Below, piece after piece: positions 1-11,559 of a stretch of 11,559 nt of DNA. The stretch is from contig JAICQE010000146.1 of the NCBI GenBank assembly GCA_025938035.1, positions 1-11,559 of the forward strand, given 5' to 3'. Both the position numbers and the translations under genes were made by a program. The DNA comes from Vicinamibacteria bacterium (GTDB lineage Bacteria; Acidobacteriota; Vicinamibacteria; Vicinamibacterales; UBA2999). Under the pieces are notes generated by a model that ran no database searches, had not been told where the DNA came from, and saw nothing but the letters and a program-made list of their open reading frames with translations. How positions within the stretch are numbered: position 1 is the stretch's first letter; each line of letters starts with the position of its first letter.

Positions 1-91
1 CAACGGCGCCGACGTGGCCGCCGAGATCCTGCTCAAGGCGCTCGACAAGCCGCCGAAGAAGCCGCGCGGGCGGCCGAAACTCAAAATCTAA
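1..91 (+). CDS. C-terminal end of an unidentified protein with AT-hook-like tail (5' truncated)
   Basis: Only the last 29 codons lie in the window, read from base 2 and ending at TAA 89-91. The visible peptide has a short amphipathic stretch (VAAEILLKALDK) followed by a Lys/Pro/Arg tail containing RGRP flanked by K and P. That is the core of an AT-hook, a minor-groove DNA-binding motif. A DNA-associated protein is possible, but basic proline-rich tails also occur on ribosomal and other proteins, so no function is assigned. The stop codon ends one base before a 9-bp tandem array, and the DinB-family gene on the same strand starts 79 bases further on. Confidence 0.6.
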   Translation, partial: NGADVAAEILLKALDKPPKKPRGRPKLKI

Positions 92-171
92 ATCGTTCGA
101 ATCGTTCGAATCGTTCGAATCGTTCGAATCGTTCGAATCGTTCGGATCGTTCGAGGCGTTCGATCGTTCGA
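92..171. repeat. 9-bp tandem array (unit ATCGTTCGA), about 9 copies
   Basis: Units run head to tail from 92. Copies 1-5 (92-136) and copy 7 (146-154) are exact, copy 6 ends in GG, and copy 8 (155-163) starts GG. A ninth copy lacks its first base (164-171), and its last A is the A of the downstream ATG. The array fills the entire space between the upstream stop (89-91) and the DinB start. All three plus-strand frames are open through it. No inverted partner arm is visible, unlike the other three arrays in the window. Confidence 0.95.
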
Positions 172-668
172 TGCAGTCGATTGAACTGATACGCCACAAC
201 CTGACACAGAGCCGCGATCGTGTGCTCGCTCGCGTTGCGGACATGCGCAACCACTGCATGGTGTTCCCGACTCCGAACGGAGGCTGTCACACGCTGTGGG
301 TGCTCGGACACCTCGCCTACATCGAGACGCTGGTCATCCGCAGGTTCATGCTCGGCGAAGAAAACCCGCTGGCACAGTGGGAGCAGGTTTTCGACAGCGG
401 CCACGTGAGCGGGGACGCCAGCCTGTTCCCTCCGTTCGATGAGGTGTTGAAACAGTGCCGCGACGTGCGTGGAACAACCCTCGCGCTGCTCGATTCACTG
501 TCCGAAGACGATCTCGACCGATCGAGCGTGAACGCGCCCAAGGGCTTCGACGAGATGTTTGGCACCTATCGCCTGTGCCTGCAGTACGTCGCCGACCACT
601 GGTACATGCACCGCGGCCACCTGGCGGACGCACGGCGCGCCGCTGGATTAGAGCGGAGCTGGTTCTAG
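171..668 (+). CDS. DinB-family (DinB/YfiT-like) putative metal-dependent protein
   Basis: The 165-residue product matches the DinB/YfiT four-helix-bundle superfamily in length and motif layout. A His sits in the helix-2 region (H47 in GHLAYIE), and a second cluster near the C terminus reads HxxxHxxH (H143, H147, H150) followed by LADARRAAG. In the family the three histidines usually bind a divalent metal, and many members act as thiol-dependent transferases, for example in bacillithiol or mycothiol chemistry. The substrate here cannot be told. Start: ATG 171 is the first in-frame start, since the frame stays open upstream through the repeat but has no ATG, GTG or TTG there. No Shine-Dalgarno is present because the 9-bp array abuts the ATG. 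If 171 is not used, ATG 243 (residue 25) is the next ATG, but it would lose the first helix. The gene converges on the ankyrin gene. Confidence 0.85.
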   Translation: MQSIELIRHNLTQSRDRVLARVADMRNHCMVFPTPNGGCHTLWVLGHLAYIETLVIRRFMLGEENPLAQWEQVFDSGHVSGDASLFPPFDEVLKQCRDVRGTTLALLDSLSEDDLDRSSVNAPKGFDEMFGTYRLCLQYVADHWYMHRGHLADARRAAGLERSWF

Positions 669-706
669 TACGTAGTGTCCGCCTTCAGGCGGACCTGCTG
701 CACTAG
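665..706. repeat. REP-like palindrome, GTAG-type foot, between convergent genes
   Basis: A 7-bp stem (677-683 with 688-694) closes a TTCA loop. Outside it TAGTG (673-677) can pair with CACTA (701-705), or CTAGT (665-669) with ACTAG (702-706). GTAG precedes the stem at 672-675. The element covers the stop codons of both convergent genes (TAG 666-668 plus; TAG on the minus strand at 703-705). It could act as a bidirectional terminator, though no T-run follows. It shares the TTCA loop and GTAG foot with the palindrome at 3180-3208. Confidence 0.75.
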
Positions 707-1908
707 TTACCGCCGAGCAGAGCGCGAGTCATCTCACAATTCTTCCGGTTGTAGCTGAACTCACCGCCGACGACCGGGGTGGTCTTTGGCGTCGCCAGTT
801 CGAGCGCTGTCCGTCCGTCGCCGGCAACCGCGCGGGCATCGGCGCCAGCTTCGAGGAGAGCGCGAATGTTCCAGTAGCTGCAGCTTCGGGCCGCATACAT
901 GAGCGGGGTCAGCTCTTCCCCATCGCGGGCATCGATCTGCGCGCCATGGCGGCTCAGAAGGTCAATGAAGTCTGTATCCCTGCCTACGGCCGCGTGATGC
1001 AGCGCCGTCTCACCATTTTTGCCCGTTTTCAAATTCGGATCGGCGCCATGTGAAAGCAGCAGCAACGCGTTGGGACGTGAGGCCACATCGATAGCCGCCA
1101 TCAATGCTGACTTGTCGGATCGGCCCACGGTATCGCTGTCGACGTCCTGCTCGAGCAGAAATCGAAGCGCGCTGCTGTCTTTCGCTGCCGACGACATCAC
1201 CAACATGTCTGCGGTAAGCGGCGATCCGGGATCCACGAGAGCCGCGGAAAAAAGCGCCTGCTGGATGTCAGCGTCTCTAACTCCACCATCCCTTCCAAAC
1301 GCGTAGAGGAGGTCGTCATCGGCAACATGGGCGCCGTGCGTGAGCAACGTCCGCACAGCGTCAACGCGATTGCGTAATACGGCACAGCGCAACGCCGTCC
1401 AACCGTCTTCGTTCTTCGCGTTCACATCCCATCGGCTGCGGAGCAGCTCCTCGTACAACTCGGATGAGGGCGTCAAGTAACGGTCGGGGCGCGCAGTGGC
1501 ATACACACGCCGTTCGAGCGCACGAAGTCCCGGATCGTCCCTGGTCCAGTCCTCCACTTCGTGGATGCGCTCACGGTCACGGTAAGACACGACCGCGACG
1601 CCCGCATCAATGACCATCGGTCCAGTTCGCGGAATGCGAAAGAAGCCGGCTCGGTGAAACGCCCGCACGAGCCCGTCAAAGTCAGAAGCGGGAACTCGAT
1701 AATGATGGGTTCCGGGCACGGCGCATCCGGCCACGCCAGTGAACCAGACGTGCCCGCCGCTTGCCAACTTGAGCTCGAAGCCTGAGCAGCCTTCGCACCA
1801 ATCCTGACGCAGCCGATACGAGAGTTCTACGTCGCGCGTGTCAACAGCGCATGCTGACACCGCGACCAGGGCCGCAACAACGATGCACTCTCGCCCAGGT
1901 CTGCACAT
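703..1908 (-). CDS. Ankyrin-repeat lipoprotein with DUF6438-like N-terminal domain
   Basis: The 401-residue protein starts with a short signal peptide ending in a lipobox (V17-S-A-C20), so it is probably a lipid-anchored exported protein. Residues 30-125 resemble the DUF6438 pattern: a YRLRQ strand, paired cysteines around C38/C41, GGHVWFTG, then AGFFRIP and a late strand VAVVSYRDRERIHEV. This assignment is from memory of the pattern. Residues 168-375 form ankyrin-type repeats, for example GWTALRCAVLRNRVDAV, NGETALHHAAVGRDTDFIDLL and LTPLMYAARS. The consensus is degraded around 200-265. Ankyrin repeats mediate protein binding, and no catalytic residues are visible. The ATG lies 3 bases after the PHP gene stop, so it is probably the last gene of the operon. 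No clear Shine-Dalgarno is seen. The last codons lie in the REP-like palindrome at 665-706. Confidence 0.85.
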   Translation of the reverse strand: MCRPGRECIVVAALVAVSACAVDTRDVELSYRLRQDWCEGCSGFELKLASGGHVWFTGVAGCAVPGTHHYRVPASDFDGLVRAFHRAGFFRIPRTGPMVIDAGVAVVSYRDRERIHEVEDWTRDDPGLRALERRVYATARPDRYLTPSSELYEELLRSRWDVNAKNEDGWTALRCAVLRNRVDAVRTLLTHGAHVADDDLLYAFGRDGGVRDADIQQALFSAALVDPGSPLTADMLVMSSAAKDSSALRFLLEQDVDSDTVGRSDKSALMAAIDVASRPNALLLLSHGADPNLKTGKNGETALHHAAVGRDTDFIDLLSRHGAQIDARDGEELTPLMYAARSCSYWNIRALLEAGADARAVAGDGRTALELATPKTTPVVGGEFSYNRKNCEMTRALLGGN

Positions 1909-1911
1909 GCA

Positions 1912-2838
1912 CTAATGGACACATGGATTCACCCGTTTGTTCCGGAGCCAGAAGTGCGGACCGTGCCCCCCAAGAATCACCAGACCGAGCGCGCCGAACC
2001 AGGTCAGCGCGACCGAGAAGCGTCTCCACTCCGGATGCGGGTCCGATCGCCCGGCCGGGCGGACATCGCCGAGCAACCGGATCAGCGATGGATCGCCGGT
2101 CAGACCGCCGTCACCGTCCACCGCAAGCGTCCGGCCGCTGCGGATGGCCTCGATGACGCCCGCTTTCGTCCGCTCCGTCACGAAGAGATACGTCCGGCAC
2201 CGGCCGAGCGTCGGCGGCATTGCGTGGAAATCCGAAGATCCAATCGCGGCGACATTCGCATTAACTCGCCGCGCCCTCCCGAAGAACGCCGCAAGGTCGC
2301 TTTTGAAGGCGTCATCCCAGTGAACACCGGAGTGTGCCGCCTCGGCGCCGTCGAGAGCCGCAACGGTTGCGTCGGCGTCATAGCCATGGAATCGCCGCGA
2401 TGGGTGCGCGGCGATCGCGACGCCGCCCTGTGCCTGCACATCCGCGATCGCGCCCGCGGCGGGCTGGTCCGCGTTCACAGCCTGATCGATGCCCGCCGCA
2501 ATCATGTGGTATCGCGGGTTGGTGATCTCCTGGCCCGCCAGCATCAGCGGACCGTCACCACGTCGGCTCACCCACTCGGCGAGCCGGCCGGTGAGCGACT
2601 GGTTGTGGTTGGTCACCGCGATGACGTCCAGTCCCGCCCTGGCCGCTTCGTCGCGCAGCACCCATGGCGCGAGCGCCCCGTCGCCGGGAAAAGCGTGCAC
2701 GTGAAAGTCGCCCGACAGCACCAGGTACTCGCCGGCGCGGAGCGGCCCACGCGCCGGGATCCGATCGGTCAGGCTGCCGAGCGCCGCCCCTGCGAACAGA
2801 AGCGCCGCCGATCCTACACGCAGCGACAGCCGGCTCAC
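1912..2838 (-). CDS. PHP-domain phosphoesterase-like protein, membrane anchored
   Basis: This 308-residue protein carries the metal-binding motifs of the PHP superfamily: DFHVH (H46, H48) followed by D53, TNHN (H78), E104, H111, AAHP (H145) and SSDFH (D203, H205). The full set suggests an active trinuclear metallo-phosphoesterase, but the substrate is unknown. An N-terminal hydrophobic segment (about 8-22) and a second near the C terminus (about 274-291) put the catalytic domain outside the cytoplasm or tether it to the membrane. The start is GTG 2836-2838, overlapping the TGA of the upstream gene in a GTGA tetranucleotide. AGGA lies 7 bases upstream of it, so translational coupling is likely. 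The start of the ankyrin gene follows 3 bases after the stop. Confidence 0.87.
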   Translation of the reverse strand: MSRLSLRVGSAALLFAGAALGSLTDRIPARGPLRAGEYLVLSGDFHVHAFPGDGALAPWVLRDEAARAGLDVIAVTNHNQSLTGRLAEWVSRRGDGPLMLAGQEITNPRYHMIAAGIDQAVNADQPAAGAIADVQAQGGVAIAAHPSRRFHGYDADATVAALDGAEAAHSGVHWDDAFKSDLAAFFGRARRVNANVAAIGSSDFHAMPPTLGRCRTYLFVTERTKAGVIEAIRSGRTLAVDGDGGLTGDPSLIRLLGDVRPAGRSDPHPEWRRFSVALTWFGALGLVILGGHGPHFWLRNKRVNPCVH

Positions 2839-3380
2839 TGAAACATCCTCACGATCGGGCCGTAGACCTGAAACCAGCCGCCAGCGGTCAGGGCGACGAG
2901 CTCGAACCCGATCGCCCAGATCGCCAGGAAATGCGCCGCCGCACGCCAGCGCGCACCCGCCGGGCTCGTGCCGAGGACGCGGCGGCAGAACGCGGCAACG
3001 ATGACTGCGGTCCAGATGGCGGGAAGGACGGCCAGCGCAATCAGCAGGTCCAGCGATGCCGCCCGCATCGAGGCAAACGCGGCGGCAACGGTCAGCAACC
3101 AGAGGCTGTAGGGAACGTGCCCGGCAAACCAGAGATCGAGCGCCTGTGGCAGGCTCGGGCGCAGCGACCGGGCGTCGAAAGGCCGACCTGAAGGTCGGCC
3201 TCTACCAGTCGCGATGATCGCCGCGCCGACCGCCATCTGAATCGCAACGACAAAGCTGAACGAGAGTACCGACGACACCAGCAGGCCGAGCGTGACTCGC
3301 TGCACGGCCATGATGGGCACGGCCGTTCCGATCACGAGAGCGACGATGAGCGGACGACGAAGCATCCGCCACGCGCTCAC
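2835..3380 (-). CDS. Polytopic membrane protein, Yip1-like in style; start uncertain
   Basis: The 181-residue form from GTG 3378-3380 has about five hydrophobic segments (near 10-25, 31-55, 91-106, 111-131 and 148-166) separated by Arg-rich loops. No catalytic motif is visible. The layout recalls Yip1-like or permease-like integral membrane proteins of Acidobacteria, but the family is not certain. An ATG at 3363-3365 is an alternative start. The same frame stays open upstream through 3381-3463 and reads like genuine protein (TELGVALAPDRAYRALVAVD) without any ATG, GTG or TTG, so the N terminus may be longer than annotated. A REP-like palindrome lies inside the coding region and adds the segment GRGRPSGRPF to the loop near residues 59-68. 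The stop overlaps the PHP start. Confidence 0.7.
   Translation of the reverse strand: MSAWRMLRRPLIVALVIGTAVPIMAVQRVTLGLLVSSVLSFSFVVAIQMAVGAAIIATGRGRPSGRPFDARSLRPSLPQALDLWFAGHVPYSLWLLTVAAAFASMRAASLDLLIALAVLPAIWTAVIVAAFCRRVLGTSPAGARWRAAAHFLAIWAIGFELVALTAGGWFQVYGPIVRMFQ
3180..3208 (-). repeat. REP-like palindrome inside the membrane-protein gene
   Basis: GGCCGACC (3181-3188) and GGTCGGCC (3193-3200) form a perfect 8-bp stem, 9 bp with the flanking A3180/T3201, around a TGAA loop (TTCA on the minus strand). GTAGA precedes the stem on the minus strand. It has the same foot (GTAG), loop (TTCA) and size as the element at 665-706, so it looks like another copy of one dispersed family. Its length keeps the host reading frame open. 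Confidence 0.8.
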
Positions 3381-3463
3381 GCGCTGGTCGACTGCTACGA
3401 GCGCGCGGTATGCGCGGTCGGGAGCGAGCGCGACGCCGAGTTCGGTTGAGAAGATGTCCGAGC

Positions 3464-4147
3464 TTACTTCACGCAGGTGACCAGCGACCAGATCTTCGGC
3501 ACGTTCACCTTTTCAATCGACTCCGGGCGAAGCCCGGCCTGCGCCAGGAACGCCGGCAGATCGAGATCCGACTTGAAGCCGATGTGGACGGTGAGCGGCG
3601 AAATGGAACGCTCGACGCGCGAGAGCACCGGATTGGCGCTGCGGAAGTGATTCAGGATGACGATCTTGCCGCCCGGCTTGCAGACGCGCCGCATCTCGCA
3701 GGCGACCGTCACGGGATCGGGCACGACGCTGATCAGGTACGGAGCGTACACGATGTCGAACGTATCGTCGGCAAAGGTCGTCTTCGCGGCATCCATCTCC
3801 ATCAGGCGGACGTTGCGCAGGCCCTCGCGCGCAACCCGCTCCCGCGCCTTGTCGAGCATCGAGGTCGAGAGGTCGATGCCCGTCACGTGACAGTTGCGCG
3901 GATAGAGCGACGCGTTGATGCCGGTGCCGACGCCGACTTCGAGGATGTGGCTCCCTGGCCGGATTTCCATCCGGTCGCGGGCGACGAGTCGCCCGGGGTG
4001 GAGCGTCGGGCCGAAGATCAGGTCGTAGACGCTCGCCAGCTTTTCGTAGACGCGTTCGACGAAGTGGTTTTCAACGGCGATCACGGAGAGCGCGCGGGTT
4101 CCAACGTCGCTACCGAAATCAGTCTCTTCTCGCTCGAACAGCGCCAT
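3464..4147 (-). CDS. Class I SAM-dependent methyltransferase, PmtA/UbiE-like
   Basis: The 227-residue protein has the class I Rossmann methyltransferase layout. Motif I is ILEVGVGTG (68-76), the acidic ribose-binding position is in TGIDLS (89-94), motif II/III is around FDIVYAPYLISVVPDP (130-145), and RVCKPGGKIVILNHF (154-168) is the post-motif strand. The segment YDLIFGPTLHPGR before motif I is typical of bacterial phosphatidylethanolamine N-methyltransferases (PmtA) and related UbiE-like enzymes. Methylation of a membrane lipid is therefore the best guess, though a quinone or other lipid substrate cannot be excluded. The ATG at 4145-4147 has GGAG 5 bases upstream. The gene lies 47 bases after the phosphoesterase stop, with a -10-like TATAGT between them. 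Confidence 0.88.
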   Translation of the reverse strand: MALFEREETDFGSDVGTRALSVIAVENHFVERVYEKLASVYDLIFGPTLHPGRLVARDRMEIRPGSHILEVGVGTGINASLYPRNCHVTGIDLSTSMLDKARERVAREGLRNVRLMEMDAAKTTFADDTFDIVYAPYLISVVPDPVTVACEMRRVCKPGGKIVILNHFRSANPVLSRVERSISPLTVHIGFKSDLDLPAFLAQAGLRPESIEKVNVPKIWSLVTCVK

Positions 4148-4152
4148 TCACG

Positions 4153-4190
4153 CTCCAGGGACGCGAGCCGACAGTGGCTTCGGGACTATA
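4153..4190 (-). promoter_or_regulatory. Candidate internal -10 (TATAGT) and Shine-Dalgarno of the methyltransferase
   Basis: On the minus strand TATAGT (4185-4190) differs from TATAAT at one base and lies about 37 bases before the methyltransferase ATG. GGAG (4153-4156) sits 5 bases before that ATG. No convincing -35 box is seen 16-18 bases upstream of the hexamer, so an internal promoter is only a candidate. The ribosome-binding site is firmer. Confidence 0.4.
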
Positions 4191-4194
4191 CCAT

Positions 4195-4893
4195 TCATTG
4201 GTCGAGGCGGCGGTAGTCAAGTGTGCCGGCGTCGATCAGCAGGTACGACCGGTTCACGCGGTCAATACACACGGACGGCACACCCTCGCGCACGGTTGCG
4301 CTGAACCGGTGGTGGTGGCCGCAGAGATGAAGACGCGGCTTGAGCGCCGCGAGGACCTCGTTGATTGCCGGTTTGCCCGCATCGAGGCGCCGGCTCTTCC
4401 TGCCCGGCGACGGCTCGTCCACGACGATGAACGGCCGTGCCGCCTCATGTGTCATCAGGATATCGATTGGTGCAAGGTGTTTGCACGCCTCGGCTTCTTC
4501 GCGCACGAAATGCCGTCTTTTGTCGTCGCGCTTCTCGACGGCCGCGTCGCGGCGTCCGTGGGGCAATTCCGCGACGGTCGAGTTGAACCACGTCGGCGCA
4601 AACGTCCCGCCGAGACCGGCAACCCGCAGCGGGCCGACGTCTGCCGCCGTGCCGTTGCGGATGTAGTGAAGATTGTGCGGCTGCGCCTCACCGGCCTCCC
4701 ATGCCGCGATGCGCTCGAAGTCCTCGTTGTTCCCCTTGATCCAGAACAACGGCCGCGGCGGCGCCGGGTAGCTCCCAGTACGGCTGGCCACATCGCCGAC
4801 GCAGATCCAGAGCGGCACGTCGGGATGGCGATCCATCGCGCGTGTCAGCGCGTCGAAGTTGCCGTGGATGTCAGCGACGGCGCCGACGGTCAT
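4195..4893 (-). CDS. Calcineurin-like metallophosphoesterase
   Basis: The 232-residue protein shows all signature motifs of the calcineurin-like metallophosphoesterase fold in order: DIH (D8, H10), GD (G33-D34), GNNED (54-58), a THE histidine (H149) and GHHH (192-195). These ligands build a two-metal site for phosphate-ester hydrolysis. No signal peptide is present, so it is probably cytoplasmic. The spacing and the PLFWIKGNNE / HYIRNGTAADVGPLRVAGLGG stretch recall the branch that includes RNA lariat debranching enzyme-like proteins, but no substrate can be named. Its ATG (4891-4893) overlaps the TGA of nuoI in an ATGA tetranucleotide, a standard sign of translational coupling. A fixed pairing with a complex I subunit would be unusual. 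Confidence 0.9.
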   Translation of the reverse strand: MTVGAVADIHGNFDALTRAMDRHPDVPLWICVGDVASRTGSYPAPPRPLFWIKGNNEDFERIAAWEAGEAQPHNLHYIRNGTAADVGPLRVAGLGGTFAPTWFNSTVAELPHGRRDAAVEKRDDKRRHFVREEAEACKHLAPIDILMTHEAARPFIVVDEPSPGRKSRRLDAGKPAINEVLAALKPRLHLCGHHHRFSATVREGVPSVCIDRVNRSYLLIDAGTLDYRRLDQ

Positions 4894-5336
4894 CCCGCGA
4901 CGGCGGGCAGCTTGGCGTCAACGGAAGGCTTGACGAGCAGGTCGGTCTTGTCCCAGATGAAATCGTCCTTGCTGTAGACGGCCAGCTCGTAGTCCTTGCC
5001 CATGAAGATCGCCGACACCGGGCAGGCTTCCTCGCACATGCCGCAGAAGATGCAGCGCGTCTTGTGTATCTGATACACCGATGCGTAGCGCGGCCCGGCC
5101 ATCACCGTGCCGTCGTTCTCGGCCGCCTCGAGGTAGATGGCGTCGGCAGGACACGCAACCGAGCAGAGGCCGCAGGCGACGCACTTCTCGAGCCCGTTCT
5201 CGTCCCGCATCAGCACCTGTTTGCCGCGGTACTTCGGGAAGACGGGTACTTTCTGGTATGGATAATTCACCGTGACCGGCTTCTTGAACATGTGCCGCAG
5301 GGTGGTCAGGAAGCCGACAATGAGCGGACGAATCAT
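4890..5336 (-). CDS. nuoI: NADH-quinone oxidoreductase subunit I (two [4Fe-4S] ferredoxin-like)
   Basis: The 148-residue protein has two classical 4Fe-4S motifs, CxxCxxCxxxCP at C52/C55/C58/C62 and C95/C98/C101/C105. Its N terminus (HMFKKPVTVNYP) and the YRGKQVL segment are those of NuoI, the complex I subunit carrying clusters N6a and N6b in the peripheral arm. The length is somewhat shorter than many NuoI proteins (about 160-180) but complete. No other nuo gene is in the window: upstream is a divergent histidine kinase, and downstream a phosphoesterase. It is therefore either a detached complex I gene or an extra copy. The start ATG (5334-5336) lies 6 bases after a TATGAT hexamer, leaving no room for a leader or Shine-Dalgarno, so a leaderless mRNA is likely. 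Confidence 0.9.
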   Translation of the reverse strand: MIRPLIVGFLTTLRHMFKKPVTVNYPYQKVPVFPKYRGKQVLMRDENGLEKCVACGLCSVACPADAIYLEAAENDGTVMAGPRYASVYQIHKTRCIFCGMCEEACPVSAIFMGKDYELAVYSKDDFIWDKTDLLVKPSVDAKLPAVAG

Positions 5337-5342
5337 GGATCA

Positions 5343-5348
5343 ATCATA
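5343..5348 (-). promoter_or_regulatory. -10 hexamer TATGAT of nuoI, leaderless type
   Basis: On the minus strand TATGAT is followed by 6 bases (TGATCC) and the nuoI ATG. Transcription starting about 7 bases after the hexamer would begin at the ATG itself. The hexamer's first T pairs with A5348, the first base of the inverted heptamer array. No recognisable -35 is seen because that region is the repeat arm. Confidence 0.6.
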
Positions 5349-5441
5349 AGGCCTAAGGCCGAAGGCCGAAGGCCTAAGGGCTGGTCAAGGCAGCAGGGCT
5401 TCGTTCTCCCCTTAGGCCTTAGGCCTTCGGCCTTGGGCCTT
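5348..5441. repeat. Facing arrays of 7-bp units (AAGGCCN) with 27-31 base spacer
   Basis: The left arm is AAGGCCN four times (5348-5375; N = T, G, G, T) plus a degenerate AAGGGCT. The right arm is the reverse complement, NGGCCTT four times (5414-5441; N = A, A, C, G), preceded by a degenerate TCCCCTT. The 28-bp arms can pair except at two variable positions. The structure occupies nearly all of the 118-base divergent intergenic region and would form a long hairpin or cruciform. Confidence 0.95.
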
Positions 5442-5442
5442 C

Positions 5443-5448
5443 TACAAT
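5443..5448 (+). promoter_or_regulatory. -10 hexamer TACAAT of the histidine kinase gene, leaderless type
   Basis: TACAAT is followed by 6 bases (GTCCCT) and the GTG start at 5455, the same geometry as the nuoI promoter on the opposite strand. The hexamer begins one base after the right repeat arm. No Shine-Dalgarno precedes the GTG, which fits a leaderless transcript. Confidence 0.6.
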
Positions 5449-5454
5449 GTCCCT

Positions 5455-6780
5455 GTGCCGCAGGATCTGTCGCCCGAGCAATTCCTGCTCACCATCCTCT
5501 TCAAGCTCGCCGTCATGGCCGTCCTGGCGACGATGCTGGCGAGGTACCACCGTTTCCGGCACATCCTGATTTTCGAGCGCCGCGGATGGGTGGATCGCCT
5601 GGTGTTCATGGCGGCGCTCGGCGTCCCGCTCGCCGCCGGCGTCGCCTTCCGCGTGCAGTTGCGCTACTACGCCGCCGATCTGACGCTCGAAGGCGCCTTC
5701 CTGGCCGGCCTGATCGCGGGTCCGTATACCGGCGCACTGCTGGGCCTTCTCGTCAGCGTCCCGGCCGTGTTGAACCACGAATACATCGCGCTGCCGTTCG
5801 CCATCGGCTGCGGATTTGCCGGCGGGGGCCTCCGCGAAGCGTGCCCGAAGGAAACCATCTGGCAGTTCACGCCGTTCGTGTTCCTCGATCTGCCGAAGCA
5901 TCTGCGCAAGATGATTTGGAACCTCGAGCCAATGTGGCAGATCATCCTGCTCCTCGCTCCGTTTTCGCTCGAGATGCTTCGCCAGGTGCTCGGCATGCGC
6001 TTCGCCGGCAAGCTCTTCTACCTGTCGTCGATCACGCAGCTCGAGCCCGAGCGGCCGTGGATGATGATTCTCGTGGTACTGGCCACGGTGCTTTGCGTCG
6101 CTACACCGATCAAGATCTGGAACAGCGCCAGGGTCGAGCATCGGCTGCAGGAGCAGGAAAAGCTGCTGCTCGCGGCGAAGATCGAGTCGCTGAAGAGCCA
6201 GATCAACCCGCACTTTCTCTTCAATACGCTGACGTCGATCTCATCGCTCATTCGCGCCGAGCCGGACACCGCCCGCACGCTCATCATCCGTCTCTCCGCG
6301 CTGCTGCGGCGGCTGCTGCGCAGCCATCAGCACTTCGTCTCGCTGCGCGAAGAGCTCGAGGCGATCGACGAATACCTGGACATCGAAGTGATCCGCTTCG
6401 GGCCGAAGCTGAAAGTGATCAAGGACATCGACCCGGACACGCTCGACCTGATTGTGCCGAGCATGATTCTGCAGCCGCTGGTGGAGAATTCAATCAAGCA
6501 CGGCTTCTCGCGCAAGGTCGGCCCCGGCTCGATCACCATCCGCAGCCATCGCGAGAACGGCCGCGCGGTGATCGAGGTCGAAGACGACGGGATGGGATTC
6601 TTCACCGACGCGCTCGACCAGCCGATGTCGAGCGGCATCGGGCTGTCGAACGTACGGGAGCGCCTCCGCGTGATCTACGGCACCACATATCAACTGAAGC
6701 TCTCCAGCGAACCGGGCAAGGGGACGCTCGCGCGCATCGAGGTGCCGGAGCTGGCATTCGCGCATGAACAGCTCGCTTAA
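5455..6780 (+). CDS. LytS/YehU-type sensor histidine kinase
   Basis: The 441-residue protein has an N-terminal membrane part with about six hydrophobic segments between 9 and 218, including LAGLIAGPYTGALLGLL, which resembles the 5TMR-LYT sensor. A coiled linker (222-250) follows, then the His_kinase region with NPHFLFNTL (phosphoacceptor H253). The HATPase domain shows its N-box QPLVENSIKHG (N345), DDGMG (378-381) and GIGLSNVRERL (394-404). This is the LytS/YehU family, which signals to LytTR regulators. The start GTG 5455 is chosen because the TACAAT box lies 6 bases upstream; ATG 5447 is in another frame. Its last 17 bases overlap the regulator gene, so the two are co-translated. The sensed signal is unknown. 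Confidence 0.93.
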   Translation: MPQDLSPEQFLLTILFKLAVMAVLATMLARYHRFRHILIFERRGWVDRLVFMAALGVPLAAGVAFRVQLRYYAADLTLEGAFLAGLIAGPYTGALLGLLVSVPAVLNHEYIALPFAIGCGFAGGGLREACPKETIWQFTPFVFLDLPKHLRKMIWNLEPMWQIILLLAPFSLEMLRQVLGMRFAGKLFYLSSITQLEPERPWMMILVVLATVLCVATPIKIWNSARVEHRLQEQEKLLLAAKIESLKSQINPHFLFNTLTSISSLIRAEPDTARTLIIRLSALLRRLLRSHQHFVSLREELEAIDEYLDIEVIRFGPKLKVIKDIDPDTLDLIVPSMILQPLVENSIKHGFSRKVGPGSITIRSHRENGRAVIEVEDDGMGFFTDALDQPMSSGIGLSNVRERLRVIYGTTYQLKLSSEPGKGTLARIEVPELAFAHEQLA

Positions 6781-7561
6781 GGTTCTCGTCGTCGACGACG
6801 AGCAGCTCGCGCGCGACGAGCTCTGCTACCAGCTTCAGCGTATCGATGAGGTCGAAGTGGTCGCTCAGGCCGGCAACGGCCTGGACGCGCTCTCCGCCGT
6901 CGACCAGTGCGAGCCCGACCTCGTCTTCCTGGACGTCCAGATGCCGGGACTGACGGGCTTCGAGGTGGCCAGGCGTCTGTTGACCCGCGGCGACGAGGCG
7001 CCGGCCATGGTGTTCGTCACGGCGTTCGATCAGCACGCCATCGAGGCCTTCGAGGTCAACGCGGTGGACTACCTGCTCAAGCCGGTCGAACCGGGACGTC
7101 TCGAACAGGCCGTGGACCGGGCCCGGCGGCGCATCGACGGCGGGCGGCCGGGGGCCGGGGCGGGAGCGGGGTTAAACGATCAACTCGAACAGATCGTCAA
7201 AATGATGGCTGGGCGGCAGGTGCGCCGGGACCAGGTCGCCATCAAGGTCGGGGAACGGTTCATGCTGGTTCAGGCGGAAGAAATCATCTTCGCCTCCCTG
7301 GCCGACGAGTCGATTAACATAGTGACAGGGCAGGTGGCGGGAACGTCCAACTACAGGACCCTGGACGACTTACAGGCACGGCTCGATCCCGAGGTGTTCT
7401 GGCGCGTGCACCGGTCGCATCTGGTCAACATCAACAAGATTAAGGAGATCGTCCCTTGGTTCAGCCGGAATTACATCCTTCGGATGAAGGACGCGAAGGG
7501 GACGGAGATCCCGGTCAGCCGCGCACAGACGAAACGGCTGCGGGAATACCTGAAGCTCTGA
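6764..7561 (+). CDS. LytTR-family response regulator
   Basis: The 265-residue protein has a receiver domain (about 5-120) with acidic pocket D11/D12, phosphoacceptor D57 in FLDVQMPG, T86 in VFVTAFD and K106 in DYLLKPVE. A Gly/Ala/Pro-rich linker (about 125-140) follows. The C-terminal LytTR domain (about 155-265) includes FMLVQAEEIIFASL, FWRVHRSHLVNINKIKEI and the IPVSRAQTKRLREYL end. LytTR proteins bind direct repeats upstream of target promoters. The ATG overlaps the end of the kinase gene by 17 bases, so this is its cognate partner. Targets cannot be read from sequence, but signal peptidase I is the next gene and may be co-transcribed. Confidence 0.95.
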   Translation: MNSSLKVLVVDDEQLARDELCYQLQRIDEVEVVAQAGNGLDALSAVDQCEPDLVFLDVQMPGLTGFEVARRLLTRGDEAPAMVFVTAFDQHAIEAFEVNAVDYLLKPVEPGRLEQAVDRARRRIDGGRPGAGAGAGLNDQLEQIVKMMAGRQVRRDQVAIKVGERFMLVQAEEIIFASLADESINIVTGQVAGTSNYRTLDDLQARLDPEVFWRVHRSHLVNINKIKEIVPWFSRNYILRMKDAKGTEIPVSRAQTKRLREYLKL

Positions 7562-7764
7562 CAGCGCCCTTCGCCTCCGCCGATGGACTGCGGCGGGACG
7601 AGCCGGAGGCCGACAGCGGCGAACGCGAGCTGCGTGCGGAGGCGACTGAGGGCGAACCCGCAGTACCTGCGTCGGAGCCTCTGACCCGAACCGACCTCCG
7701 CTCCGAGCTGGATCACCAGCGCGACGTCGTCATTCACCGGCTGAACGTCTGGAAGGACGAGCTC

Positions 7765-8259
7765 GTGGCGTGGTTCAAGACGCTCGCGTCGGCGGCTGTG
7801 TACGCGACGCTGATCGTCACCTTCGGCTTCCAGGTGGCCCGCGTCGAAGGTCAGAGCATGGCGCCGACGCTCGAGGATCAGGATCGGTTGATCGTCAACA
7901 AACTGGTCTACCGGATGGGCGAGCCGCGGCGCGGCGACATCGTGATGCTCTACTACCCCATCAACCCGGATAAGTCGTTCGTGAAGCGGGTGATCGGCGA
8001 AGAAGGCGACGAGGTGCAGATCGTCGACGGCCAGGTGTACGTCAACGGCGCGCCCATCCCCGATGACTTCGTCCCGGAGGAATACCGCAGCCACGACGAC
8101 TGGGGGCCGGAACGGATTCCAGACGGGTACTACTTCGTGATGGGCGACCATCGGAACAACAGCTCCGACAGCCGGCACTGGAAGTTCGTCCCGAAGAAAT
8201 ACATCATCGGCAAGGTCCAGCTCCGCTGGTGGCCGATTCCGCACGCCCGGGTTTTCTAA
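7765..8259 (+). CDS. lepB: Signal peptidase I
   Basis: This is a type I (S26A) leader peptidase that removes signal peptides on the outer face of the cytoplasmic membrane. From GTG 7765 it has 164 residues: one transmembrane helix (about 6-23), the Ser motif GQSMAPTL (nucleophile S31), the Lys motif SFVKRVIG (general base K74), and the C-terminal box GDHRNNSSDSR (127-137). GTG 7765 is preferred because AAGGA lies 7 bases upstream and the N terminus then has normal SPase form. The same frame is open back to TTG 7456, which would overlap the LytTR gene by 106 bases and add about 103 acidic residues. No ATG, GTG or TTG lies between 7562 and 7765, so a longer form would need an unusual start. Confidence 0.92.
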   Translation: MAWFKTLASAAVYATLIVTFGFQVARVEGQSMAPTLEDQDRLIVNKLVYRMGEPRRGDIVMLYYPINPDKSFVKRVIGEEGDEVQIVDGQVYVNGAPIPDDFVPEEYRSHDDWGPERIPDGYYFVMGDHRNNSSDSRHWKFVPKKYIIGKVQLRWWPIPHARVF

Positions 8260-8277
8260 CGCATCCCCGGGCGTGTA

Positions 8278-8401
8278 ATTCAAAATGCAAAATGCAAGAT
8301 GCAAACTGAAAGGCGTTCGCAGCATCGGTGTGAACCCGGCATGGCTTACCCCGTTTCTGCGTACAACGTCATGTTTGCATTTTGAATTTTGCATTTTGCA
8401 T
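8278..8401. repeat. Facing arrays of 7-bp units (TTTGCAT), 4 copies per arm, 68-base spacer
   Basis: The left arm has four copies of the reverse-complement unit ATGCAAA (8278-8305; first copy ATTCAAA, third ATGCAAG). The right arm has four copies of TTTGCAT (8374-8401; second copy TTTGAAT). Pairing leaves about three mismatches over 28 bp. The AT-rich arms contrast sharply with the GC-rich surroundings. The structure fills the lepB to CDF interval, starts 18 bases after the lepB stop, and its last T is the first base of the likely TTG start of the CDF gene. Confidence 0.95.
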
Positions 8402-9288
8402 TGACCACCGATAGATATCGAGAAGTCACCCGCGTCCTCTGGCGCGTTCTCTTCCTCAATCTCGGCGTCGCCGTCGCGAAAATCGCGCTGGGGTATGCGA
8501 CCGGCGCGGTCTCGATCCTCTCCGACGGCTTTCACTCGCTGACGGATTCTGCGTCGAACGTCGTCGCGCTCGTCGGCGTGTCGGCGGCGCGCCGGCCGCC
8601 CGACGCGGATCATCCGTACGGACACCGTAAATACGAAACGATGGCGTCGCTCGCCATCCTGATCTTCCTTGTCGTGGTGCTCGTACAGGTCGTCTCGGCA
8701 TCGATCGATCGCCTCATGAACGGCGGCACGCCGCGTGTGTTTCCCGAAGGCATCGCGCTGATGACGGTGACGTTGATCATCAACATCGGCGTCGTCCGGT
8801 ACGAGCTCGGGCAGGGCCGCCGCCTGCACAGCGAGGTCCTGCGCGCGGACGCCAAACACACGCGGGCGGACGTGCTGACGTCGGTTGCCGTCCTCGGCGC
8901 GCTGGTGGGCGTCTGGTGGGGCTACCCGATCCTGGATCCGCTGGCGGCGGTGCTCGTCGCCGGTTTCATCGGCCACGCCTGCTGGAGCATCGCGCAGGAA
9001 GCGTCTGGCATCCTCGCGGATCACATTGTGATTCCCGAAGCGGACGTACGGGAGGTGGTTCAGTCCGTTCCGGAGGTGCTCGGCTGCGAGAAGATCCGGA
9101 CGCGCGGCTCCGCGGACTACGCGTTCCTGGACCTGCATCTGTGGCTCGACGGCTCGACGCCGCTGCAGTCCGCGCATTCGATCTCACACATCGTCAAGGA
9201 CAGGCTGATGGCGAAATTCCCTCAGCTGGCGGACGTCATCATCCACATCGAGCCGCCGCCTCTCAGGTTGCCTGGGTTGCCCGAGTAG
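8401..9288 (+). CDS. Cation diffusion facilitator (CDF) family metal exporter
   Basis: The 295-residue protein has six transmembrane segments (near 13-31, 33-60, 83-102, 116-135, 158-176 and 181-198) and a cytoplasmic C-terminal domain (about 210-286). That domain ends with IIHIEP, the normal fold of CDF antiporters that export divalent metals in exchange for protons. The transport site pairs H45xxxD49 in SDGFHSLTD (TM2) with H153xxxD157 in KHTRAD (TM5). A HxxxD motif in TM2 favours zinc-type members over DxxxD Fe/Mn types. DHPYGHRKYE (70-79) is a family signature. TTG 8401 is taken as the start, and TTG 8389 four codons upstream lies inside the repeat arm. The last codons (RLPGLPE) and the TAG fall in the left arm of the 9-bp array. 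Confidence 0.9.
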   Translation: MTTDRYREVTRVLWRVLFLNLGVAVAKIALGYATGAVSILSDGFHSLTDSASNVVALVGVSAARRPPDADHPYGHRKYETMASLAILIFLVVVLVQVVSASIDRLMNGGTPRVFPEGIALMTVTLIINIGVVRYELGQGRRLHSEVLRADAKHTRADVLTSVAVLGALVGVWWGYPILDPLAAVLVAGFIGHACWSIAQEASGILADHIVIPEADVREVVQSVPEVLGCEKIRTRGSADYAFLDLHLWLDGSTPLQSAHSISHIVKDRLMAKFPQLADVIIHIEPPPLRLPGLPE

Positions 9289-9356
9289 CCTGGGTAAAAA
9301 CGCAGGCAACCGCGGCAACTCAGTTAACCCAGGCCACCCAGGCCACCCAGGCCACC
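9266..9356. repeat. Facing arrays of 9-bp units (GGTTGCCTG / CAGGCCACC)
   Basis: The left arm has three units (9266-9292: GGTTGCCTG, GGTTGCCCG, AGTAGCCTG) plus GGTAA. After AAACG, the right arm has six contiguous reverse-complement units (9303-9356), of which the last three are exact CAGGCCACC. The first right unit, CAGGCAACC, is the exact complement of the first left unit. Several pairing registers are possible. The CDF stop codon (9286-9288) lies in the third left unit, so the array has extended into coding sequence. Confidence 0.93.
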
Positions 9357-9374
9357 CAATCGGCATTCCGATTG
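9357..9374. repeat. Small hairpin between the 9-bp array and the holin-like gene
   Basis: CAATCGG (9357-9363) and CCGATTG (9368-9374) form a perfect 7-bp stem with a CATT loop, directly after the array and 14 bases before the ATG of the next gene. There is no T-run. It could be an attenuating hairpin or an operator. The short interval to the ATG has no Shine-Dalgarno. Confidence 0.5.
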
Positions 9375-9388
9375 CTGCGTACACCGGT

Positions 9389-9802
9389 ATGGATCCAGAA
9401 GTGGTACGTCCTGAGACGATCGGCGGGCTGATCCGTGGAATTCTGACTGACCTGCGGACGCTGATTCGGGAGGAGATTGCGCTCGCGCGCGTCGAAATCC
9501 GCGAACAGGCGGGACGCGCCCGCGCCGCAGCGCTGAGCTTCGGATTGGCGGCGGGAGCGCTGCTCTTCGGCGTGGCGTTTCTGCTGGTGGCAGCGGCCAC
9601 AGCCATCGCCGAGCTGCTCGGCTGGCCGGTGTGGGCGGGCTTCCTGGCGATCGCCGTCCTGCTGGCGCTGGTCGGGTTCGTGTCGCTTTCGTCGGGCCGC
9701 CGGCAGCTGCGGAGGTTTCACGCCGTTCCGCCGCAAACCGTTACGACATTGAAGGAGAATTCCGAATGGATCGCGAAGCGGCTGTCCTCCGCGCAGAAAT
9801 GA
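9389..9802 (+). CDS. Membrane protein of the putative actinobacterial holin-X / phage holin 3_6 (DUF1469) family
   Basis: The 137-residue protein has the DUF1469 layout: an N-terminal amphipathic helix LRTLIREEIALARVEIREQ (about 22-40), two transmembrane helices (about 48-76 and 80-101), then a short basic cytoplasmic tail. Despite the family name such proteins are common chromosomal genes with no lysis role. They are often next to DUF3618 genes, as here, and are thought to be envelope or stress-associated. No lysin or other phage gene is nearby. The ATG 9389 is the first in-frame start after the array, and GTG 9401 is an alternative. The 3' end overlaps the DUF3618 gene by 37 bases, indicating co-expression. 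Confidence 0.85.
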   Translation: MDPEVVRPETIGGLIRGILTDLRTLIREEIALARVEIREQAGRARAAALSFGLAAGALLFGVAFLLVAAATAIAELLGWPVWAGFLAIAVLLALVGFVSLSSGRRQLRRFHAVPPQTVTTLKENSEWIAKRLSSAQK

Positions 9803-10038
9803 GCCGGACGCGCGCCGAGCTCGACGACAAGCTGACGGCGCTGCACGCGAAGGTCAGCGACCTGACGCCGCGACGGCTCACCGAGCGCTACCTGCCGGAG
9901 TACTTCTTCGATCGCGTGGTCGGCGGAATCCTCACGGTCGTCGGCCTGAAGATGGCCTGGTCGCAATACCGTCAGATCAAACACCGCCGCGAACGGCCGC
10001 AGCAGCGCGAGCTCAACGGCTACGGCCGCTGGCATTAG
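9766..10038 (+). CDS. Small DUF3618-type membrane protein
   Basis: The 90-residue protein matches the DUF3618 pattern: an N-terminal helix with AEMSRTRAELDDKLTALHAKV (about 10-30), a short linker, and one hydrophobic segment (about 50-65, VVGGILTVVGLKMAW), ending in a very basic tail. Its function is unknown. The ATG 9766 is chosen over the longer open frame because AAGGAG (9752-9757) sits 8 bases upstream and the family motif starts right after it. It overlaps the preceding holin-like gene by 37 bases in another frame, a common pairing. No other partner is seen, and the gene is followed by the double-hairpin element. Confidence 0.82.
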   Translation: MDREAAVLRAEMSRTRAELDDKLTALHAKVSDLTPRRLTERYLPEYFFDRVVGGILTVVGLKMAWSQYRQIKHRRERPQQRELNGYGRWH

Positions 10039-10040
10039 CG

Positions 10041-10115
10041 GCGGATTTCACTTCCGTGGCGCGAACCTTGCGGGTTCGCGAGGCGAGCCTGCAAGGCTCG
10101 CCCCACGAAATCCGC
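10041..10115. repeat. BIME-like structure: two inverted REP-like hairpins within an outer stem
   Basis: GCGGATTT (10041-10048) pairs with AAATCCGC (10108-10115), and CGTGG (10055-10059) pairs with CCACG (10103-10107). Inside are hairpin 1 (10060-10067 with 10073-10080, loop TTGCG) and hairpin 2 (10082-10089 with 10095-10102, loop TGCAA, which is TTGCA on the minus strand). Each strand then reads CGTGG + 8-bp stem + TTGC[GA] loop + stem, so the two hairpins are inverted copies of one unit. It sits between convergent genes and may also stop transcription from both sides. Confidence 0.85.
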
Positions 10116-10157
10116 GCTCGGCGCATTTGAAAATGCGATAGCGACGAGCCGCTTCGT

Positions 10158-10787
10158 TTACGACACGATGCGATGTTCGTACGCGAAGCGGACGAGTTCC
10201 GCGGTCGAGCGGACCTGCAGCTGCTGCATGACCCGGTATTTGATCGCCTCCACCGACCGCGTCGTCAGACTGAGCGCTGCGGCAATCTCCTTCGCGCGCT
10301 GCCCGCGCACGACCAGCCGCAGAACGTCTAGTTGCCGCTCCGTGAGCGCGGTGGTGCCGGGAACCACGCCCTGCACCATCAACAGCACGGTCGGTTTGAT
10401 GATCTGCGGCGACAGGTAGGTCCTGCCCGCGATCACGAGCTGAAGCGCTTCCTCCAACTCACGCCCGCTCGACTCCTTGAGCACGAACGCCGACGCTCCC
10501 ATCTTGAGCGCTTCGACCGCCAGGCACGGGTCGGCGTGCATCGTCAGCACCACAGCCTTGAAGGGGATCTTGCGCGCCTTCAGTCGCTGCAAGACCTCGA
10601 GGCCGCTGACGTGCGGGATCGACAGGTCCAGCAGCAGCACATCCGGGCAAAGCCGCCCGACCTCCTCGACGACGCCGCGGCCATCGGTCAACGTGCCGAC
10701 GATCTCGTAGCGGCGGCCGAGCAGCTTGACGAGCGCCTCGATGACGATCTCGTGATCCTCGACGATCAGCATCCGTGGTCGGTCCAT
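10158..10787 (-). CDS. NarL/FixJ-family response regulator
   Basis: The 209-residue protein has a receiver domain (about 5-120) with E10/D11 in the acidic pocket, phosphoacceptor D54 in LLLDLSIP, T82 in VVLTMHA and K104 in FVLKES. A LuxR-type helix-turn-helix follows (about 144-200: LTERQLDVLRLVVRGQRAKEIAAALSLTTRSVEAIKYRVMQQL). By family it dimerises and activates transcription when phosphorylated. No histidine kinase gene lies next to it here, and the divergent neighbour is a stand-alone receiver. The ATG at 10785-10787 has only a GGGG run upstream on the minus strand. The 3' end faces the BIME-like element. Confidence 0.95.
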   Translation of the reverse strand: MDRPRMLIVEDHEIVIEALVKLLGRRYEIVGTLTDGRGVVEEVGRLCPDVLLLDLSIPHVSGLEVLQRLKARKIPFKAVVLTMHADPCLAVEALKMGASAFVLKESSGRELEEALQLVIAGRTYLSPQIIKPTVLLMVQGVVPGTTALTERQLDVLRLVVRGQRAKEIAAALSLTTRSVEAIKYRVMQQLQVRSTAELVRFAYEHRIVS

Positions 10788-11087
10788 GGCGGCCCCATCA
10801 GATTTGGGTCCCCGGCGGTCTCGTCCGTCGGACGAGCGGGCGAAGGCCTCGTCTGTTCACGCATTAAATGACGGCATCCTCGCGAACTCTGCACCCGCCC
10901 CGGCAGCTGATCAAGCTGGCAGTTGTTCCGGCAGTACGCCTGTCAGATCTACGAGGGTTTGGCGTGGCGGTCGACACATGTCGTTGCCACCCACTGCCGA
11001 TGGTGCGCGCACCGCATTCGCTCGGTCGCCAAGGCGACAAAACCCGCGAAAAACGCCCCGGCATTCTTCCTGCTACCGGTATGACCA
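10788..11087. promoter_or_regulatory. 300-base divergent intergenic region
   Basis: This lies between the starts of the NarL-type regulator (minus) and the receiver protein (plus), so it should hold both promoters. I see an inverted repeat TCGTCCG-T-CGGACGA (10821-10835) and a shorter CGACA-N2-TGTCG around 10970, either of which could be an operator. No confident -35/-10 pair is found in either direction. The small open frames here have no recognisable protein features and look random. Confidence 0.4.
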
Positions 11088-11486
11088 ATGGTTCCCGCGC
11101 GAGTGCTCGTGGCCGATGACGACGCGGACATGCTTGCCGCGGTGGGAGACGCGTTGGCCAGCCTGGGGTTCGACGTGCGGAGCGTGGACAGCGGAGCCGG
11201 CCTGATCGATTGCCTCGCGACCGATGGTCCGTTCGATCTCCTCGTCACCGATATTTCGATGCCGTGGATGGACAGTCTGAAGACGCTCCGCTCGATTCGC
11301 ACCGCCGGCGTGACGACTCCGGTCATCGTGATCACGGCGCTGACCGACGCGCAGATTCCGAACCGCGTGCAGGCGCTTGGCGCGAACACGATCCTCCTCC
11401 GCAAGCCGTTCGACCTCGACGAGCTCGCCGCAGCCGCGCAGCGGATGACGGCCGGCAGCCCGGCGGGTCCCGAGCAGCAGCGGTAA
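11088..11486 (+). CDS. Stand-alone receiver-domain protein (CheY-like)
   Basis: The 132-residue protein is one receiver domain. The acidic pocket is D10/D11/D12 in VADDDADM, the phosphoacceptor is D55 in LLVTDISMP, the Thr is T83 in VIVITAL, and the Lys is K106 in ILLRKPFD. A short tail ends at TAA 11484-11486. There is no output domain, so it may act by protein contact or phosphotransfer. The usual PGMDG loop after the phosphoacceptor reads PWMDS here. The chosen ATG lacks a clear Shine-Dalgarno. ATG 11081 upstream is in another frame. Its cognate kinase is not in the window and may lie further downstream. Confidence 0.9.
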   Translation: MVPARVLVADDDADMLAAVGDALASLGFDVRSVDSGAGLIDCLATDGPFDLLVTDISMPWMDSLKTLRSIRTAGVTTPVIVITALTDAQIPNRVQALGANTILLRKPFDLDELAAAAQRMTAGSPAGPEQQR

Positions 11487-11559
11487 GAGGGACTCTCGCG
11501 CCGCGAGCCATTCGCCGTGGCGGGAACAGCGGGTTGCGATGGCCGTTTTGCCCTTTCCA
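11487..11559. other. Right end of window, no feature seen
   Basis: Seventy-three bases follow the receiver gene stop. No start codon with a convincing ribosome-binding site, hairpin with T-run or repeat is evident. Confidence 0.5.

Follow-up and report, generated by a model that had tools for sequence, protein, structure and literature searches.

What produces repeat arrays that share a layout while differing in unit sequence is the question raised by an 11,559-nt stretch of a Vicinamibacteria bacterium genome (contig JAICQE010000146.1, positions 1 to 11,559; hereafter the window), in which four such arrays, A1 to A4, lie at gene junctions (Table 1). An earlier interpretation made from the letters alone (the sequence-only reading) had attributed them to a process that builds short-unit inverted arrays in place. 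Comparison with relatives leads us to favour, at a probability of roughly 0.62, the view that they belong to families of intergenic foldback repeats with short units, dispersed through the genome and in part inherited. In such an element, two facing arms built from one unit of 7-9 nt would enclose a spacer that members mostly do not share; around half of the arrays are one-armed. Several families coexist in a relative's genome, their distribution among genomes being patchy; sense and phase are fixed, the inward strand is G-rich, arms show slippage-like homogenisation and some arrays are inherited. Under this explanation, existing arm ends would be copied to new gene junctions, either by template switching or by inserting a foldback copy, after which arms may lengthen and shorten by slippage, and the arrays would persist at gene junctions because nothing essential is broken there.

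Table 1. Positions of the four arrays, with their arms and spacers, in the window.
Feature	Position	Strand	Unit or length	Method
A1 array	91..171	+	9-nt unit AATCGTTCG, 9.1 copies, single direction	Tandem Repeats Finder
A2 left arm	5347..5379	+	unit TAAGGCC / GAAGGCC	tandem and inverted repeat searches
A2 spacer	5380..5409	.	30 nt	facing-pair analysis
A2 right arm	5410..5441	-	A2 unit (TAAGGCC / GAAGGCC) reverse-complemented	tandem-repeat and facing-pair analysis
A3 left arm	8277..8305	+	unit AATGCAA	tandem and inverted repeat searches
A3 spacer	8306..8373	.	68 nt	facing-pair analysis
A3 right arm	8374..8402	-	7-nt unit	tandem-repeat and facing-pair analysis
A4 left arm	9266..9295	+	9-nt unit GGTTGCCTG	tandem-repeat and facing-pair analysis
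A4 spacer	9296..9326	.	31 nt	facing-pair analysis
A4 right arm	9327..9358	-	unit ACCCAGGCC = GGGTGGCCT read inward	tandem-repeat and facing-pair analysis

Relatives were sampled as 80 loci, kept from 116 fetched around relatives of the window's kinase, which together with the window gave 81 loci (1.29 Mb); profile and unit searches covered 162 genomes of the order taken to be Vicinamibacterales, some being run on 50 genomes. Across the 81 loci, 36 facing pairs were found against five same-direction neighbour pairs, while 50 permutations of units among arrays gave a mean of 2.3 facing pairs and a maximum of six. The single architecture with differing units described by the sequence-only reading proved frequent, with 25.0 facing 7-9 nt pairs per Mb in the 80 loci and 20-61 in four genomes (partly sampled genomes G004, 60.6 over 578 kb; G009, 39.9 over 276 kb; G007, 20.0 over 200 kb; and G083, 35.4 over 310 kb from regions partly chosen around A2-unit sites). 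None was detected in 100 kb of E. coli K-12, and one in 421 kb of G012, a distant member represented by a 6.1 Mb contig. A reverse-complement partner lay no more than 250 nt away for 119 of 236 intergenic arrays, compared with 23 when the unit was shuffled; control partners numbered 24 (complement only), 6 (same direction) and 2 (reversed only). A second count of the 236 placed 80 in detected pairs, gave 40 more a hidden partner and left 107 single. In the main set of 91 arrays, from which L093 (identical to L009), the GC-rich hexamer of L028, two of three L154 tandem copies and loci L008, L157 and L271, which repeat others, had been dropped, units were of 7 nt in 62, 8 nt in 22 and 9 nt in 7. 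Most lay between genes, 81 being under half coding and 10 half or more, according to our own gene-calling script, which over-extended some genes (e.g. L014, L045). One 8-nt array (L204:11188-11257) falls within a called gene (10040-11845) that appears mutL-like by eye, and at L154:9522-9877 a facing 8-nt element is present in three tandem copies at 144-nt spacing.

Units recur within genomes far more often than shuffling would produce. In a unit-sharing set of 54 arrays (L028 and two L154 copies dropped; L157 and L166 already left out), exact unit matches were found for 10 of 101 same-genome array pairs (0.2 in shuffles) and 9 of 1330 between-genome pairs (1.5 in shuffles), and a hand-made grouping of the 578 kb of G004 sorted 32 of 35 pairs into about eight unit groups. 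The A1 unit had matches in two of the 162 genomes (nine and one), the nine lying on eight contigs of G101 with at most two mismatches, the A2 unit in seven genomes (3-26 each) and the A3 unit in nine (1-10 each); sites are fewer than unit matches because matches overlap within arrays. Backwards control patterns matched in no genome for A1, in one for A3 and in 13 for A2 (versus seven for the true A2 pattern), the last probably representing other heptamer families. At two mismatches, the A4 unit gave 1-4 matches in eight of the 162 genomes, mostly to a different 9-mer, with its backwards control matching in 12; as a multi-copy family in relatives it appears unconvincing. The units are unrelated inside the window, as the sequence-only reading held, but in the relatives examined units are not unrelated genome-wide, where they form families. 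Dispersed multi-copy families with conserved flanks, which that reading had named as contrary to its proposal, were found in part: some relatives hold multiple copies of the A1, A2 and A3 units, A4 not convincingly so, but family members differ in their flanks and mostly in their spacers. Nine of 43 inspected A2-unit sites in relatives were facing, most being one-armed. Arm ends at two unlinked G009 sites had 44 nt in common, 10 positions of which were non-periodic (next longest, 31 nt). In G156, arrays at L325 and L326 each grade from GGCCTTC units to GGCGTTC, which suggests that families arise through mutation inside arrays.

Family members also agree in orientation and in their ends. Sense was the same in 54 of 57 same-genome exact unit pairs, with 15 of 16 clusters lacking any opposite pair, and between genomes the same sense prevailed by 23 to 3 for exact matches and by 89 to 32 for those with one mismatch. 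Outer-end phase reached a mean R of 0.80 (17 families, 96 ends) against 0.41, with a maximum of 0.545, in a null of random cuts and foreign flanks (300 rounds), a uniform null being open to bias from the boundary rule. In 68 of 91 arrays the phases of the two ends differed by no more than one base (null, 41%), and the phase test found the family-shared terminal inverted ends by which DDE-type miniature inverted-repeat transposable elements or foldback transposons are recognised. The inward strand of 59 facing clusters was G-rich in 41, C-rich in 9 and near neutral in 9 (41 of 50 skewed), and the G-rich strand of single arrays pointed away from the nearest gene in 51 of 70 skewed cases; in the window, A2 and A3 show almost no skew. 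G-rich to C-rich ratios were 17:3 at convergent, 41:9 at co-directional and 6:1 at divergent junctions, and start-codon avoidance was rejected as the source of polarity, convergent junctions also being polar. This combination of within-genome unit sharing, one sense, one phase and a common 44-nt arm end leaves unsupported, in the relatives, the claim that copying of one mobile sequence does not explain the arrays.

Several observations weigh against the foldback-family explanation. Genome-wide statements rest on relatives, none on the window's own genome; large families supply many of the 57 exact pairs; at one mismatch, same-genome sense was the same in 25 pairs and opposite in 17; and base composition alone tilts matches towards the same sense (0.98 per shuffle versus 0.10 opposite). 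Most spacers differ within a family, unlike plain whole-element transposition. Among the 91 arrays, target-site duplications of 5 nt numbered one against 1.9 expected and those of 6-8 nt none, with array boundaries uncertain by a few bases. No copying enzyme was found, no search having been aimed at an unusual polymerase. Flanking repeats of 4 nt numbered 12 against 7.6 expected (p 0.07, 91 arrays).

In one form of the in-place generation favoured by the sequence-only reading, template switching at short inverted repeats, together with slippage, would make facing arrays site by site out of hairpins already present there, for instance terminator stems. Arms do bear the pattern of local growth that this predicts, neighbouring units being 0.80 identical compared with 0.71 for non-neighbouring units, and spacers folded more stably than shuffles in 20 of 58 cases (z below -2). 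At one shared junction, a right arm faces an array of 12.6 GTCGTTG units in L021, while in L030 the units number about 2.5 and no right arm was seen; template switching has also been reported to make and repair hairpins (PMC8794818). Mirroring between arms, however, was 0.81 in the outer register, only slightly above the 0.77 of other registers, and fell to 0.75 in the inner one; families within genomes, with fixed sense and fixed terminal phase, also count against this origin. The sequence-only reading is partly supported, in its common architecture and in local growth; as the origin of the arrays we regard in-place generation as unlikely, though the leading alternative.

Orthologous junctions show arrays inherited in some cases and absent in others. 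At nine such junctions, compared in up to 83 loci, 20 facing arrays occurred among 496 instances, with per-junction frequencies of 0-13% and units differing between species. Repeated hits at one junction need no hot spot because occupancy is so low, and insertion hot spots were rejected as a candidate. Unit and junction were both common to the related loci L018/L106, L022/L033, L049/L021 and L156/L030, while the L026 array has no counterpart at the corresponding junction of L027. Array-free junctions had median lengths of 1 to 106 nt; 19 of the 20 array-bearing junctions measured 96-302 nt, the remaining one (L045) measuring 33 nt because its gene call runs into the array. Of 100 array ends, 61 lay at most 15 nt from a gene, and both ends did so in 23 of 50 arrays (two called neighbours each).

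In the window itself, the arrays were placed with Tandem Repeats Finder and the arms confirmed by inverted-repeat search, bearing out the sequence-only reading as to the four locations, the facing arms of A2, A3 and A4 and the positions of all four at gene junctions, touching or near starts or stops. A1 begins directly 3' of a TAA (89-91) and reaches the ATG at 171 of a DinB-like gene. A2 separates divergent Fer4 and LytS-like kinase genes, with called starts 10 and 13 nt away, and the inward reading of each arm begins AAGGCC. A3, whose arms read inward begin AAT(T/G)CAA, lies between LepB and cation-efflux genes, beginning 17 nt past the LepB stop and running over the start called for the gene that follows. 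Inside the A4 left arm falls the stop codon of the cation-efflux gene (9286-9288), and at 9264-9288 this arm encodes the C-terminal RLPGLPE plus stop, where the L011 protein ends in IEPPPPS. At the same junction in L005, a facing AAATCCC array after the cation-efflux gene was found by eye and had been missed by the detector.

Arrays might instead be selected RNA hairpins, retained as terminators or mRNA 3' stabilisers, with selection for pairing keeping the arms alike. A2, A3 and A4 fold strongly as RNA (z of -8.0, -6.6 and -4.1), with A1 (z = -1.3) within its shuffles, and arrays favour convergent junctions (15 of 50 arrays versus 118 of 726 gaps, p 0.019). Three terminator-like matches touch A2, A3 or A4, but the window holds ten such matches versus 6.9 in shuffles. 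Differences between arms are not mainly G-U-preserving (AG 90, GT 84, CT 83, AT 44, CG 43 and AC 33 of 2729 columns), no partner was found for 107 of 147 further arrays, and A2 and six others of 50 arrays sit at divergent junctions, which are not significantly under-used (7 of 50 versus 170 of 726 gaps, p 0.16). No word in the spacers exceeded the shuffle maximum in a motif search, and an Rfam search of the window gave no match. We consider selected hairpins improbable, and caution against taking such arrays for terminators, regulatory RNAs or one-off oddities.

Could a dedicated enzyme have written the arms? A telomerase-like or RNA-copying enzyme adding arms to both 3' ends of a junction break before rejoining would account for the facing layout, the single sense and phase of each family, the G-rich 3' strand, arm variants that arise independently, spacers with nothing in common and the closeness of arms to genes; one-armed arrays would be events at one end only. 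The co-occurrence with a reverse transcriptase envisaged by the sequence-only reading was not observed: PF00078 matched in 19 of 50 genomes, was most frequent (seven) in array-poor G012 and was absent from array-rich G083 and G009, whose assemblies may be incomplete. The coexistence of about eight unit groups in G004 and the non-periodic positions within the common 44-nt arm end also count against templated addition, which appears very improbable.

Equally remote, or slightly more so, is mobilisation by RAYT transposases of repetitive extragenic palindromic (REP) elements whose repeats are tandem by chance. Y1_Tnp matches occurred in 37 of 50 genomes, with six in array-rich G004 and none in array-poor G012, but array-bearing G008, G035 and G102 had no match. 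None of the three Y1 genes inspected was flanked by short-unit arrays, the nearest to L261 being about 2 kb off, and in G004 the flanks of L209 and L204 carry other palindromic repeats. REP-like short palindromes similar to these (e.g. GTCCGCCTTCAGGCGGAC) occur in the window at 671-697, 3179-3205 and 10058-10104. G087 holds 13 Y1_Tnp matches, compared with 0-6 in the other 49 genomes.

A separate issue for the foldback families is what allows facing arms to persist. In E. coli, SbcCD is reported to cleave hairpins at a palindrome (PMC4245961), and loss of this nuclease is a possible permissive factor. SbcD scored above its family cut-off in five of 50 and 19 of 162 genomes. At this cut-off, facing arrays were present at none of eight loci in SbcD-positive genomes versus 23 of 45 others (p 0.007; L020, L073 and L078 assigned to genomes by hand), and 677 kb from five positive genomes held one facing pair, GC-rich and of 9-nt units. 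The association vanishes when matches below the cut-off are included (4 of 14 loci versus 19 of 39, p 0.23). SbcD absence is weakly called, since 13 of the 14 control genomes have a match but no more than 8 score above the cut-off, and a further point against the link is that SbcD requires four changes on the tree, at least three of them forced. Facing A2-unit sites numbered 3 of 24 in SbcD-bearing G156, G157 and G159 versus 6 of 19 in SbcD-less G083 and G053 (p 0.15), G053 contributing only 3 of about ten sites. The link between facing arrays and missing SbcD, drawn from SbcD matches, is suggestive only, and we lowered its estimate from about one in three to about one in four after the recount at the loose cut-off. 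If SbcCD loss does let facing arms persist, the lineage would offer a natural experiment on hairpin surveillance.

Heptamer repeats are known from scattered bacteria. An order with several families, a common polarity, defined ends and many comparable orthologous junctions makes origin and spread directly testable. A literature search among open-licence papers found no work on such arrays in Acidobacteria. Cyanobacterial short tandemly repeated repetitive sequences are degenerate heptamers of several families, dispersed between genes, as here; facing arms, polarity and phase are systematic in the present arrays. Eukaryotic foldback transposons, in which terminal inverted repeats of short tandem units surround a variable middle, share the layout of these arrays, for which neither transposase nor target duplication was found. 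The TAACTGA repeats of Beggiatoaceae are likewise heptamers in many intergenic sets, patchy among lineages, but are described as a single motif lying upstream of starts, in 169 direct sets and one indirect (PMC4679880). Constant-size, variable-sequence tandem repeats of Bacillus also comprise, within a species, several families that have one repeat length and differ in sequence, but have units of 52 or 20-21 nt, and the abstract makes no mention of facing arms (PMC8161180). The telomerase-like reverse transcriptase DRT10 makes short tandem repeats of variable sequence, 9 nt in one system, but as free cDNA off an RNA template, the account given describing no chromosomal arrays (PMC12632851); here reverse transcriptase does not track arrays.

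The closest precedent is the GGGAATC heptamers of Xanthomonas, reported as 70 and 75 convergent pairs in two genomes with the polarity seen here (PMC4692102). As described there, the Xanthomonas and Nostoc repeats (GGGAATC, GGGGA(C/T)T) share with these arrays 7-nt units, a mostly intergenic location near open reading frame (ORF) ends, a G-rich strand pointing away from the ORF, few divergent junctions, length variation among relatives and the lack of a tie to mobile elements, and no function was found for GGGAATC (PMC4692102). Heptamers lead among long simple repeats, and polymerase slippage has been proposed (PMC4679880, PMC4692102). The GGGAATC / GGGGA(C/T)T motif, described as able to form G-quadruplexes (PMC4692102), is none of the four window units; relatives do carry units related to it, TCGGGAT being one example. 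Each of those organisms, from phyla other than this lineage's, is described with one motif type, Nostoc with few pairs (PMC4692102), whereas here several 7-9 nt families coexist per genome, patchily and with fixed terminal phase. Facing architecture and polarity are therefore not new in themselves, both being described in Xanthomonas (PMC4692102); what this comparison adds is their setting in an acidobacterial order, the co-existence of several families per genome, the fixed terminal phase and the junction-by-junction comparison.

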